This document shows positions 34,880 to 38,769 of a DNA stretch of 64,000 bases, piece by piece. Source of the stretch: Nodosilinea sp. FACHB-131. GTDB taxonomy: Bacteria; Cyanobacteriota; Cyanobacteriia; Phormidesmidales; Phormidesmidaceae. A model generated the notes under the pieces. That model had not been told where the DNA came from, ran no database searches, and saw nothing but the letters and a program-made list of their open reading frames with translations. The DNA lies in assembly GCF_014695395.1 (NCBI RefSeq), contig NZ_JACJOF010000013.1:62001-126000 (forward strand), given 5' to 3'. The stretch's first letter is position 1. Each line of letters opens with the position of its first letter. Both the position numbers and the translations under genes were made by a program.

Positions 34880-34888
34880 GTGGTCAGT

Positions 34889-36253
34889 ATGAAAGCCCTT
34901 AGCCTGACTGCCCCCATTGCCCCCATGAACTCTGCTAAACAGTTGAAAATCGTATACTCTTCAGCCCCCGTAGATGCTACGAGCGTTTATATGCATTGGG
35001 TTCTAGGTCAAGATGACCCTTCTCACTTTGCAATCACCTACGCTCAGCATTTCTATGAATTAGCCAGAAAATTCAATGCAAAGTCTTGGCTGATCTCGTC
35101 AAGGGATAAAAAGGGCCTCATCCAAGACAATGATTTCAGGGTTGAATTTAGATCTCTAAAGCATCAATCTAGAAGTAGTATTGCCTACTTTGCTGGTCAA
35201 CTTTGGTCAGGCTTGAGACTGATTTTTTCAGTAATTCTTTTCAAGGCTGACATTTTAATTGTCACCGAAGATAGAACCTTTTGGTTTCTACTGGGCATTC
35301 TTCCTCTGTTTGGCATTAAGGTTATCCCTACAATTCACTGCACTTTGTGGCCCAAATATAAGCGGCCTACTACCGTACAAGGAATTATTCAAAAGCTGAA
35401 TAGCTGGTTCTTTCGGTACGGCTGTGTAGAGATCTGCGTTGTTTCTGAAGACATCAAAGACCAGATTATCAAAATTACCAAGGGTCGCAGCCGTCCTATC
35501 CGAACGTTTGTTCCTGCATATAGAAGAGAGTTTCTTGACGACATCAAGAGCCGGAGTTGCGATAATGAGTCTGAAACGTTCCAGGTTTTGTTTGCTGGCA
35601 GAGTGGAAGGAAGCAAAGGAGTTTACCTCCTTCTAGAAGTTGCGAAGAAATTTATAGCAACCCATCCCAACTGCGTATTTAACATTTGTGGTACCGGTAG
35701 TCAGGTAGAAAAGCTTAAAGCCGCTGCTTTGGAGGCCGGTATTGAGAAACAGTTTGTTCTCCATGGGCACTGCGATCGCAACAAACTTCGCAAGATGTAT
35801 GAGATGTCCCATGTTATTGCTGTCCCAACCACTAAAGATTTTGTTGAAGGATTCAACAAGGTTGTGGCTGAAGGCGTCATCATGGGAAAACCAATCGTCA
35901 CATCTCCTGTTTGCCCAGCGTTATCTGTAGTTAGGGATGCAGCGGTGGAAGTTGCTCCTGACAACGTAGATGATTATCTAAACGCTATTTTGAGGCTGGC
36001 GACGGACAAAGAGTTTTATCAGCAAAAGCAAAAAAACGCTCTGGCTCTGAGAGAACAGTTTTTCTCATACTCAAGAAGTTGGGAAGCCCAGGTGGAAGAT
36101 GTTGTTCGAAAGATCTGTAGAAGCAACTTGGATCTCAGTAAATATGGACGAAAAACGGCTCATCGCCCTCTGTTGAACGCCGACCCGAAACCCAATTCTA
36201 TGCCGAAAGAGAAGACAGCTAAAACTCTAGTTGGTCTCGATAAAGTCCTTTGA
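34889..36253 (+). CDS. Glycosyltransferase family 4 (GT-B fold)
   Basis: 454-residue retaining glycosyltransferase, probably adding a sugar to an exopolysaccharide or lipid-linked oligosaccharide. The GT4 C-terminal domain is clear: LFAGRVEGSKGVYLLLEVAKKF, FNICGTGSQVEKLK, and the acidic EX7E-type motif within DFVEGFNKVVAEGVIMGKP. A GTG nine bases upstream is an alternative start. A hydrophobic stretch around 115-145 (LIFSVILFKADILIV) suggests membrane association. Base composition is lower in G+C than flanking genes, and no other sugar-pathway gene is adjacent, so this is an orphan, possibly transferred. The 3' end overlaps the opposing small gene by 35 bp. Confidence 0.88.
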   Translation: MKALSLTAPIAPMNSAKQLKIVYSSAPVDATSVYMHWVLGQDDPSHFAITYAQHFYELARKFNAKSWLISSRDKKGLIQDNDFRVEFRSLKHQSRSSIAYFAGQLWSGLRLIFSVILFKADILIVTEDRTFWFLLGILPLFGIKVIPTIHCTLWPKYKRPTTVQGIIQKLNSWFFRYGCVEICVVSEDIKDQIIKITKGRSRPIRTFVPAYRREFLDDIKSRSCDNESETFQVLFAGRVEGSKGVYLLLEVAKKFIATHPNCVFNICGTGSQVEKLKAAALEAGIEKQFVLHGHCDRNKLRKMYEMSHVIAVPTTKDFVEGFNKVVAEGVIMGKPIVTSPVCPALSVVRDAAVEVAPDNVDDYLNAILRLATDKEFYQQKQKNALALREQFFSYSRSWEAQVEDVVRKICRSNLDLSKYGRKTAHRPLLNADPKPNSMPKEKTAKTLVGLDKVL

Positions 36254-36440: not shown

Positions 36441-36474
36441 GAAGTTAAAGAGAATAACTGAACTGAACTATTTT

Positions 36475-36528
36475 ATCGCGCAGGGGTGCTAATCACAGTT
36501 TGGTGAGGCGATCGCACCTCTGCGCGAT
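36475..36528. promoter_or_regulatory. 15-bp inverted repeat between divergent genes
   Basis: ATCGCGCAGGGGTGC (36475-36489) and GCACCTCTGCGCGAT (36514-36528) are complementary apart from one wobble position, with a 24-nt loop. There is no T tract, so it is unlikely to be a terminator. Its position upstream of a ParA/ParB-like pair makes it a candidate operator or parS-like site. Confidence 0.5.
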
Positions 36529-36636
36529 GTCTCGCGCTTACAAGCGGTTCCATAAAGCTTGCATCAACTTTGCACTGAATGCTCTCGTGTTCGAGATTTC
36601 TTTCTGTACAAAGGGTTAAAGCCATACAACTTATAC

Positions 36637-36882
36637 ATGAATTTAGAGGAAGCTCTACAAGCTCTGCCCCCAGATGCTATTGAAGTTGTCGTCGAAGGAA
36701 ATTTTTCTAAGGCTTTCTTAAAAGCTTTAGGATTTGGGGATTTAGAAATGGTGCCCGGCTTTAGAGTCGGTAGACTAGTCGTTGACCATGCCGCTCGTAA
36801 AAACGCGGATGATGATATTTTCCTGCACAGTCAAGCAAATCCCTACCTCTACATGGAGGTCAAGGGGCATCAGCGAACTTAG
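36637..36882 (+). CDS. PD-(D/E)XK/HsdR_N-like N-terminal part of a ParA fusion, frameshifted
   Basis: Open frame of 81 residues from ATG 36637 (MNLEEALQALPPD). It contains GFRVGRLVVDH, then about 20 residues later YLYMEVKG. The Asp followed by a Glu-x-Lys is the spacing of a PD-(D/E)XK nuclease core, as in the HsdR N-terminal domain. The frame stops at 36882. Shifting by -1 at the GGGG run 36864-36867 continues without a stop (GASANLADEQHPDYRK) straight into the ParA frame at 37122. One missing G would restore a single protein of about 446 residues. A sequencing error, a true mutation and recoding are all possible. The TTG at 36559 is a spurious earlier start. Confidence 0.7.
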   Translation: MNLEEALQALPPDAIEVVVEGNFSKAFLKALGFGDLEMVPGFRVGRLVVDHAARKNADDDIFLHSQANPYLYMEVKGHQRT

Positions 36883-37121
36883 CAGACGAGCAACATCCTG
36901 ATTACCGCAAAGCATCTCTACAGCTTAAACGTTACCTACTAGCTCCATCCTCTGCATCTGTTAAGTGGGGAATTTTAACAAATTCTCTCCATGTTCAACT
37001 ATTTCGGAAACACGGCAAAATTGTACATCCTGTAACACCCTGCCTACCATTAAGTGAAAATATTCAGCAGACCGTCAAGGAATTAAAGGAGCGGATAGAA
37101 ACTCCTCAACGAGCGCTGATA

Positions 37122-37976
37122 GTGGCAGTCTACAACAATAAAGGCGGCGTAGGCAAAACAACTACTACGCTAAATTTAGCAGCTGCCCTTGCTATATTCA
37201 AAAAGCGAGTATTAATTGTAGACTTTGACCCCAATCAGAGTGATTTAGGGGATGCGCTTAACCTGCCACCACTAAAAGGAAAGATTTTAGATGTTCTTAA
37301 AAGCAAAGAGTCTATTGTTCGAGAGGTTATCAAAACCTATAAATTTGAACATCCCCGATTGAGAGAGCCGTGGGGTTTCGACATTATTCTTGCTGATGAA
37401 GATCTAGTCACTGAGTTTGATGAAGTCAAAGTAAAACAGCAGGTCAAGTTTCATGCCCTACATAGAGTTTTGGAATCTGTACAGCATGATTACGACTACA
37501 TCTTGATAGATGCACCCCCAAATTGGCGAATTTTCGCTCAAAAAGCTGTTTGCGCCGCTGATGTAGTACTTATTCCAGCCCGTCACGACAACTTGCATTC
37601 CTTACAAAATGCAGGTACTGCCATCACAAAGTTTATTCCAGAAGCACAGGCAAGACGGCGGGAAGTGGGCGATTCTGGCCCTATAGCATTGCCTATCTTT
37701 ATGAACAATGCTCTTCGACCTAAAGGTCCTACCGTTCAGTTAATGCATCAGGCAATTGCCAGAATCATTAAGGATACCAAGAAAAATTCGGGAGGTTTCG
37801 ATTTAACACCCTATTTCTACCCTAGATACCGAAAGGGGCACGAAAACCTAAAAATAATTGCTATTCCATACATGGCTTTCATTTCTAAAGCCGATTTTAT
37901 GCACATGCCTGCTGCGTTTGCGTTCAAAGCGGCGCGGGAGCAATACATGAATCTTGCAAGGGAGTACTTTCTCTAA
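37122..37976 (+). CDS. ParA-family ATPase
   Basis: 284-residue ParA/MinD-type P-loop ATPase starting at GTG 37122. The same frame is open upstream to about 36861 and links it to the nuclease-like segment, so in the intact gene this is the C-terminal domain. The deviant Walker A is NNKGGVGKTTTTLNLAAAL (about residue 4), followed by LIVDFDPNQSDLGDALNL and the Walker B region YILIDAPPNW. The FAFKAAREQYMNLAREYF end is helical. The GTG would give a normal ParA N-terminus, so ParA could be made alone. It overlaps the next start by 1 bp (TAATG). G+C is lower than in the flanking regions. Confidence 0.88.
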   Translation: MAVYNNKGGVGKTTTTLNLAAALAIFKKRVLIVDFDPNQSDLGDALNLPPLKGKILDVLKSKESIVREVIKTYKFEHPRLREPWGFDIILADEDLVTEFDEVKVKQQVKFHALHRVLESVQHDYDYILIDAPPNWRIFAQKAVCAADVVLIPARHDNLHSLQNAGTAITKFIPEAQARRREVGDSGPIALPIFMNNALRPKGPTVQLMHQAIARIIKDTKKNSGGFDLTPYFYPRYRKGHENLKIIAIPYMAFISKADFMHMPAAFAFKAAREQYMNLAREYFL

Positions 37977-38656
37977 TGAGCCTTTCAGATGTTGGCAACT
38001 TGATGTGTTTGCCCTTTGACGAAATTGAACCTGGCGAACTTACCGAAGCCCATGAATATCTCATCCAATCAGCCGCTAGCCAGCTTGGGCCAGAGGGACG
38101 CAACTGGGTTCCGCTTGTGGTCAAAGAACTTGGGCCTGATCAGTACCAAGTGATTGGCAATTCGTTTATCTATGCCGTCGCCGCCGAAGCTGGGCTCGAA
38201 GAAGTTTGGTGCATCATTGCGGATGATGCGCCAGAGACCATTGCCATCACTCAAGCATTAGCCCAAGAAACCCTGCCAAAAACTAACCTTTCCACCGCCA
38301 GCCGCGAAGAAATTTCTGCGGCGCTAGATTACTTGATGAGTCAACCCAGCACTCCTCTCAAGGGTGTGAGCCACGCTTCTTTAGTCGCCCGGTTAGATGC
38401 AGCTCCCCGACAGTATTGGAAAAATCTGCAACCAATCACTAAACTCGGCTGCCGCATTACCGCTGGCAAAAAGCTAAAAACGCTAGAGCAAGTTTTTTAC
38501 CTCACGCCAGAGCCCATGCCGGAGGTGATTACAGACCGGCAGCTGCTAGAGTCGCTCAGCACCCAGCAACTCAAAACCATGGCCCAAAAACGCGATTTTA
38601 AGGGACTCTCCAAGCTCAAGAAAGCAGATTTAGTCGCCTTGCTGGCAGCAGCTTAA
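37976..38656 (+). CDS. ParB-like protein with C-terminal Rho-N/SAP-like domain
   Basis: 226-residue protein coupled to ParA by TAATG. Residues 15-90 resemble a ParB N-terminal (ParB/Srx fold) domain: LPFDEIEPGELTEAHEYLIQSAA, then VPLVVKELGPDQYQVIGNSFIYAVAAEAGLEEVWCIIAD, but without the usual GERR signature or a clear central helix-turn-helix. The last 38 residues (LLESLSTQQLKTMAQKRDFKGLSKLKKADLVALL) match the Rho termination factor N-terminal/SAP-like helix-extended-helix fold that binds nucleic acid. This combination is unlike plasmid ParB and suggests a DNA- or RNA-guided role for the ParA partner. Confidence 0.85.
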   Translation: MSLSDVGNLMCLPFDEIEPGELTEAHEYLIQSAASQLGPEGRNWVPLVVKELGPDQYQVIGNSFIYAVAAEAGLEEVWCIIADDAPETIAITQALAQETLPKTNLSTASREEISAALDYLMSQPSTPLKGVSHASLVARLDAAPRQYWKNLQPITKLGCRITAGKKLKTLEQVFYLTPEPMPEVITDRQLLESLSTQQLKTMAQKRDFKGLSKLKKADLVALLAAA

Positions 38657-38769
38657 GCGTTTGATGTGACCACTTACATCTACTTCTACTAATTGCCCTC
38701 AAACGGGCAAGAATTGGGCTCTGAGCACACCGTGCGACCCTATATGTGACTCGGTTGTTGCTCAGAACC

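Follow-up and report, generated by a model that had tools for sequence, protein, structure and literature searches.

Among the cargoes moved by ParA ATPases are DNA, organelles and protein clusters; we know of no such ATPase that carries a nuclease domain. Among the described systems, ParABS places a ParA ATPase fold and a ParB-CTPase fold in adjacent genes, as does the cyanobacterial gene pair reported here; in an ordinary ParB that fold carries a nucleotide box reading GERR, and is followed by a helix-turn-helix (HTH) and a dimerisation domain. McdA/McdB, which positions carboxysomes, likewise combines a cyanobacterial ParA-type ATPase with an adaptor, and the N-terminal domain of the type I restriction subunit HsdR (PF13588/PF04313) shares with our gene A its Pfam family and an E / D / E-x-K / Q signature. 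A survey of ParB-CTPase-fold fusions (PMC12704722) describes ParB folds that, like that of our gene B, bear lineage-specific extra domains; in the sections consulted, only a DUF3850 fusion is consistently found beside parA, and a Rho-N tail beside a nuclease-ParA gene receives no mention.

The pair, genes A and B, lies in a window of 64,000 nucleotides (the whole stretch of DNA analysed) from the 6.16 Mb genome of the cyanobacterium Nodosilinea sp. FACHB-131, labelled G000 in our genome-wide scan. The pair departs from ParABS in the nuclease-type domain at the N-terminus of A, in the helical and Rho-N parts that B carries in the places of the HTH and dimerisation domains, in the absence of a GERR-type box from B, and in its scattered genomic position; no parS was recognised at the loci. 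Unlike HsdR, A joins its nuclease-type domain to ParA and not to a helicase motor, and the McdA entries 6nop and 6non, although among the structural matches of A, align with its ATPase part only. We found no description of the pair in the literature and profile libraries searched, many subscription papers lying beyond the coverage of that search, and none of the listed NCBIfam models attains its cut-off; PADLOC contains no model specific to the pair, the models that it does contain scoring at most 34.8 bits on A, in the P-loop region only, and none matching B at E≤0.01.

Architecture of the two proteins

Gene A spans 36637-37976 on the forward strand, and in the window copy its frame is broken near 36.88 kb. 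The first piece (36637..36882; 81 codons, ending ...VVDH...MEVKGHQRT-stop) encodes an HsdR_N-like PD-(D/E)XK domain as far as the E-x-K motif, with the break near its end; the second (36885..37976), open in a different frame, encodes the remainder of the nuclease-like domain and a ParA/Soj ATPase with a deviant Walker A motif (KGGVGKTT; AAA_31, E 1.6e-31 in Pfam). The stop codon of A overlaps the start of B by one base (TAATG), which upholds the direct coupling seen in the preliminary description, and B follows on the same strand (37976..38656).

That description had also read the nuclease-like pattern and ParA as one frame once a single base is restored, and the relatives bear this out: at the window's own locus L182 carries A open over 446 codons, and in L035-L044 A is a single frame of 446-455 codons, so that the break is peculiar to the window copy among the close relatives seen. 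It may be either a mutation or an assembly error. An artefact of frame joining, as an explanation of the fusion itself, is ruled out by 68 full-length single-frame homologues.

Profile searches with 25 A homologues (Pfam, E≤0.1) matched AAA_31 in all 25, HSDR_N_2 in 21 and HSDR_N in nine, the best HSDR_N_2 match having an E of 2.2e-6 and the first member lying barely above cut-off (25.5 against 25 bits). Within the putative nuclease domain, E75, K77 and Q97 are invariant in all 68 full-length A proteins, whilst D51 is found in 67 (it varies in L083) and E16 in 67, with one gap; the Walker A residues K170, G171, G172, G174, K175 and T176 are likewise invariant in the 68. A separate alignment of 25 A proteins again has the E and Q invariant, and includes one protein (L024, which stands outside the set of 68) without the D and without the K of the signature.

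An AlphaFold model of the intact A protein of L035 (pLDDT 93.1, pTM 0.93) presents a helix (16-30), three strands (38-44, 48-54 and 72-76), a second helix (89-103) and a further strand (112-116); this succession, alpha-beta-beta-beta-alpha-beta, is the one that PD-(D/E)XK folds should show, and D51, E75/K77 and Q97 fall on the elements where such residues belong, or next to them. Residues 159-447 match Soj/ParA structures (Z 28.1, rmsd 2.9, 254 residues). When the whole model was searched against solved structures, no nuclease appeared among the matches listed, which ParA ATPases filled; the sequence of the L035 N-terminal domain gave no match to solved structures at E≤10. We assign A as a Soj/ParA-type ATPase that bears at its N-terminus a predicted HsdR_N-like PD-(D/E)XK domain, the latter by profile, residues and predicted element order. 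The fusion recurs in the 68 full-length proteins, which supports the nuclease-type domain, with its catalytic signature, and the union with ParA that the preliminary description proposed.

In Pfam, B of the window has matches below cut-off to Rho_N (E 0.0033) and ParB_N (E 0.047), and scores 14.2 bits against PF02195, for which the cut-off is 26.3; across 24 B proteins, the window's included, Rho_N was matched in 18 and ParB_N in 23 at E≤0.1. A model of the window protein (pLDDT 91.7, pTM 0.75) divides it into a ParB-CTPase fold (residues 8-99), which matches the ParB structure 7bnk_A (Z 12.2, rmsd 2.2, 89 residues), a helical middle (about 100-180), and a Rho-N domain (186-226), which matches Rho (Z 6.7, rmsd 1.0, 41 residues); a Z below 8 is weak alone, and the latter assignment is also backed by the Pfam Rho_N matches. 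ParB chains align with B up to about residue 100 only, and there is no HTH family among the listed Pfam matches of the B proteins and further partners. A B profile run against solved structures returned six matches (best E 0.071), none of them a ParB and the sixth (E 0.85) being Rho. The modelling suggested in the preliminary description gave the PD-(D/E)XK element order for A and the ParB and Rho-N folds that had been proposed for B, but no nuclease among the listed structural matches of A.

At the position of the GERR box B reads G-N-S-F, with N62 present in 64 of 64 proteins, F64 in 63 of 64, and an R or K anywhere at 62-65 in one of 64. Replacement of this box makes nucleotide binding by B doubtful and argues that B is no ordinary ParB. 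The middle domain, duplicated in six homologues (L022, L023, L024, L029, L032 and L034), gives two weak structural matches in the window protein (9a1f_T, Z 5.4; 8j5k_U, Z 4.4), which we take to be folds related to helix-hairpin-helix; the Pfam scan of this domain gave no helix-hairpin-helix match. B is, by profile and model, a ParB-fold protein with C-terminal domains of a nucleic-acid-binding type.

Pairing, portability and exchange of alleles

Pairing of the two genes is conserved. A GTDB species collection scanned with one B peptide pattern yielded 110 relatives; the best 80 of these 110 were kept, all under cyanobacterial titles, and the closest named relatives of the window's B are from Nodosilinea (L035, 97%; L036, 87%). 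At 78 of these 80 loci, all found through B, gene A precedes B in the same orientation. The two genes mostly overlap or are at most 20 bases apart, though the gap is 363 bases in L107 and 624 in L105. The other two loci are a contig end (L073) and a locus with a gene directly upstream of B that is presumably transposase-like (L079). A is full-length and open in 68 of the 80, cut by contig ends in five (L045, L100, L106, L111, L112), and broken or truncated in five (L061, L066, L074, L075, L096). A second survey, overlapping the first in genomes and so not independent of it, took an intact Nostoc A protein to 386 genomes of the phylum, the window's own included: 84 gave a match at E≤1e-15, many to the ATPase part only, and, counted by reading, 36 besides the window's own had a match covering most of A at 41% identity or more. 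B lay downstream in 29 of 30 loci, L010 being without it and L028 having a shortened copy, a deletion having apparently taken the last part of A and the first part of B at this locus (1480-3179 of L028).

The pair is portable. A collinear site in L184 (G408) lacks the segment from about 36479 to 38752 (blastn alignment edges, approximate; listed as 36479..38752) and has some 24 bases in its place; in L185 and L186 the window's insertion site is empty too, yet B is present elsewhere in those genomes. Within the genus B occurs in 18 of 26 genomes, the window's own included and one match partial (15 of the 20 of good quality), and was not found in the other eight, five of them of good quality; in Microcystis, A is present in 10 of 12 genomes. 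The cassette is chromosomal and sits at scattered sites, and when the neighbours at 81 loci (many of these truncated at contig ends) were clustered, none other than A and B recurred at more than nine of the loci. These comparisons indicate that A and B form a standalone two-gene ‘cassette’, inherited together. A type I restriction system, which would have a helicase motor in its R subunit and M and S genes beside it, was rejected on the same neighbour count and on the remainder of A being ParA. By eye, the cassette junctions have no target-site duplication and no terminal repeat.

The region is indeed AT-richer than its surroundings, as first described, with a GC of 0.43 in A and 0.51 in B where kilobases 31-34 and 39-43 have 0.56-0.63. 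A glycosyltransferase gene (34880-36253) is also AT-rich (0.44). Acquisition, proposed at the outset, holds for the pair as a unit. The glycosyltransferase gene comes and goes independently; its membership of the unit was rejected, since it is present without the cassette in L184-L186 and absent beside the cassette in L188. By eye, the window and several of L035-L044 share AAAGCTT and TAAAGCC-like stretches no more than about 100 bases upstream of the start codon of A, possibly a common regulatory leader.

Beyond chromosomes, the pair was found on two mobilizable Nostoc plasmids and on at least one IMG/VR contig (58 kb, L216/L217), the surrounding genes of which read as plasmid-like though the contig is listed as viral. 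Seven phage records match the ATPase region of A only, and on these grounds the idea that the pair is common phage cargo was dropped. A plasmid search with A of another family gave nothing at E≤1e-30. Weak relatives of B (about 30-33% identity; H66-H70) occur on plasmids of Leptolyngbya boryana, Pseudanabaena and a third Nostoc, mostly annotated as hypothetical; one of them (L115) comes from a 30.7 kb contig.

Gene A has a history of its own. Compared in bins of 200 bases, L182 and L183 share 92-96% identity over B and 88-97% over the flanks; over A the figure drops to 65-71% in six of seven bins, the bin across the end of A standing at 79%. The allele classes of A place L035 with L183 and the window with L182, and the A tree conflicts with that of the flanks plus B (AU p 8e-7 and 1.8e-5; five taxa, with inner bootstraps of 68-70 in the flank tree). 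In the pairs L040/L042 and L069/L076 synonymous divergence is saturated or about 1 in A and 0.52 and 0.27 in B, and in L103/L105 and L102/L109 the N-terminal domain and the ATPase of A differ in divergence; among the 45 pairs listed, others (L080/L081, L105/L107 and L054/L057, for example) have no such contrast. In Microcystis, A has a pN/pS of 0.74 and B one of 0.17, whilst 12 neighbouring genes range over 0.02-0.41; these values were calculated from six copies of the pair (L096, with a stop in A, being left out) and from four to five genomes for each neighbour. Taken together, these comparisons indicate that gene A alone is repeatedly swapped between diverged alleles within otherwise ~95% identical DNA, and that it changes fast whilst B is conserved. 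A pN/pS of 0.74 can reflect diversifying selection or relaxed constraint; we favour the former because the catalytic residues are conserved.

Looking further afield, 20 additional A loci were chosen by hand from the A-based genome search. The E-x-K motif is present in 19 (the exception, L117, has a frame shortened at its start) and KGGV-G/A-K in 19, and by reading a ParB-like neighbour lies beside 15, the remainder being L126-L128 and L130, and L117, which has a fragment only. HSDR_N_2 passes its cut-off in two of ten further A proteins scanned (L120, L121), and ParB_N in two of ten partners (L122, L134). The tails of the partners differ, with Rho-N in L119 (above cut-off) and helix-hairpin-helix in L129 (Pfam, below cut-off). 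The four nuclease-ParA genes without a ParB-like neighbour (L126-L128, L130) are from genomes of about 2.5-3.3 Mb. L124 and L125 combine an A protein of 34% identity with a partner of 312-313 amino acids, and as their genomes measure about 1.7-1.8 Mb, the A family reaches very small cyanobacterial genomes.

Possible functions of the pair

Synthesising these observations, the reading that we favour, with a probability of roughly 0.4, is that A is a nuclease under the control of its ParA switch, which B directs at DNA that is foreign or aberrant. It builds on the predicted folds, the pairing, the portability and the allele exchange; the cutting, the part of B as guide, the target and the benefit to the cell we infer. 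We speculate that B would use its middle and Rho-N domains to mark or sense DNA, and would engage the ParA domain of A, that ATP-driven dimerisation of A on DNA would bring two nuclease domains together, and that binding of B would toggle these on or off, such that DNA bearing B in an abnormal way (an invading plasmid or phage, or damaged DNA) would be cut. The rapid change of A may then represent an arms race in which mobile elements or their inhibitors are the opponents. Extended to the whole family, and put forward still more tentatively, the suggestion would be of an undescribed kind of DNA-targeting immune module. Here a ParB-fold adaptor, whose DNA-binding tails are interchangeable, would direct the ParA-type switch; the switch would position and gate the PD-(D/E)XK nuclease fused to it, and allele exchange would diversify the nuclease-ATPase subunit.

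Genomic context lends this no help. We drew 110 genes each from the near neighbours (325) and the far ones (291), and scanned 87 of each after similar copies and list ends had been dropped; 12 PADLOC families were matched among the near neighbours and 18 among the far ones, nearly all of them by one gene each, and there is no enrichment of defence genes beside the cassette. The surveillance idea of the preliminary description keeps its nuclease signature, ParA fusion, conserved pairing and acquisition, but an association with defence genes was not seen. This absence of a defence-island context, the weak P-loop-only PADLOC matches on A, the loss of signature residues in L024, and the broken or truncated state of A in five of 80 loci and in the window all count against a defence role.

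Next in rank, though doubtful, comes a divergent partition or positioning system, in which A forms a gradient on the nucleoid and B adapts it to its cargo, the part of the nuclease-like domain being limited to binding or processing the cargo DNA. The closeness of the ATPase to Soj, its intact Walker A motif and the ParB fold of B all suit such a role, as does the presence of the pair on the two Nostoc plasmids and the plasmid-like contig; both Nostoc plasmids, however, also carry an annotated ParM. The window genome has no PF02195 match at E≤0.01 and may lack an ordinary ParB, in a search that misses the window's B as well and that found the family in 11 of 14 known genomes, Synechococcus elongatus included. 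A partition system would not require invariant catalytic residues, and the chromosomal, scattered placement, the failure to find the cassette in eight of 26 genus genomes and the lost GERR-type box also speak against one. Nor do the loci examined share a parS-like upstream repeat. The window does have an inverted repeat 5' of A (36474..36529; arms 36474-36489 and 36514-36529) that overlaps the left edge of the inserted segment, and the arm changes in L182 preserve its pairing, the L183 version being shorter; its sequence is not shared by the other loci examined. Upstream inverted repeats exceed the best of five shuffles by at least three pairs in five of 26 loci, three of which are the window's own locus in different genomes. 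The repeat is strong only there, and the idea that it is a general centromere was rejected.

An addiction-like role, with A as a nuclease toxin that B restrains and the pair kept by the killing of cells that lose it, seems unlikely to us. A compact, patchy and portable two-gene unit would be in keeping with it, and so would the loci with a broken A and an open B, but these were found through B; moreover, A swaps alleles without B, unlike a co-evolving toxin and antitoxin, and B is a multi-domain protein with tails that vary between families. Slightly less likely again is an accessory role in DNA repair or recombination, with A processing breaks or branched DNA and B as its loading factor: the PD-(D/E)XK signature and the nucleic-acid-binding-type tails of B would serve it well, but housekeeping repair genes are not usually so patchily distributed, nor do they usually exchange alleles and evolve as fast as A does. 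That these are relics, decaying without present function, is suggested by the broken frame in the window and by the five loci with a broken or truncated A, but is disfavoured for the family as a whole, and very improbable, given that A is open and full-length in 68 of 80 loci, where its catalytic and Walker residues do not vary, and that B has a pN/pS of 0.17.

Finally, we regard the pair as a variant of the ParA-plus-adaptor arrangement, and possibly as a new defence module. The fast change of A, in which cutter and motor are joined, would fit a role in genome defence. Should the nuclease prove active, partition machinery would be linked to DNA cleavage, B would be open to direct test as a ParB fold still partnered by ParA after the loss of its nucleotide box, and a widespread, unnamed cyanobacterial gene pair would be explained.
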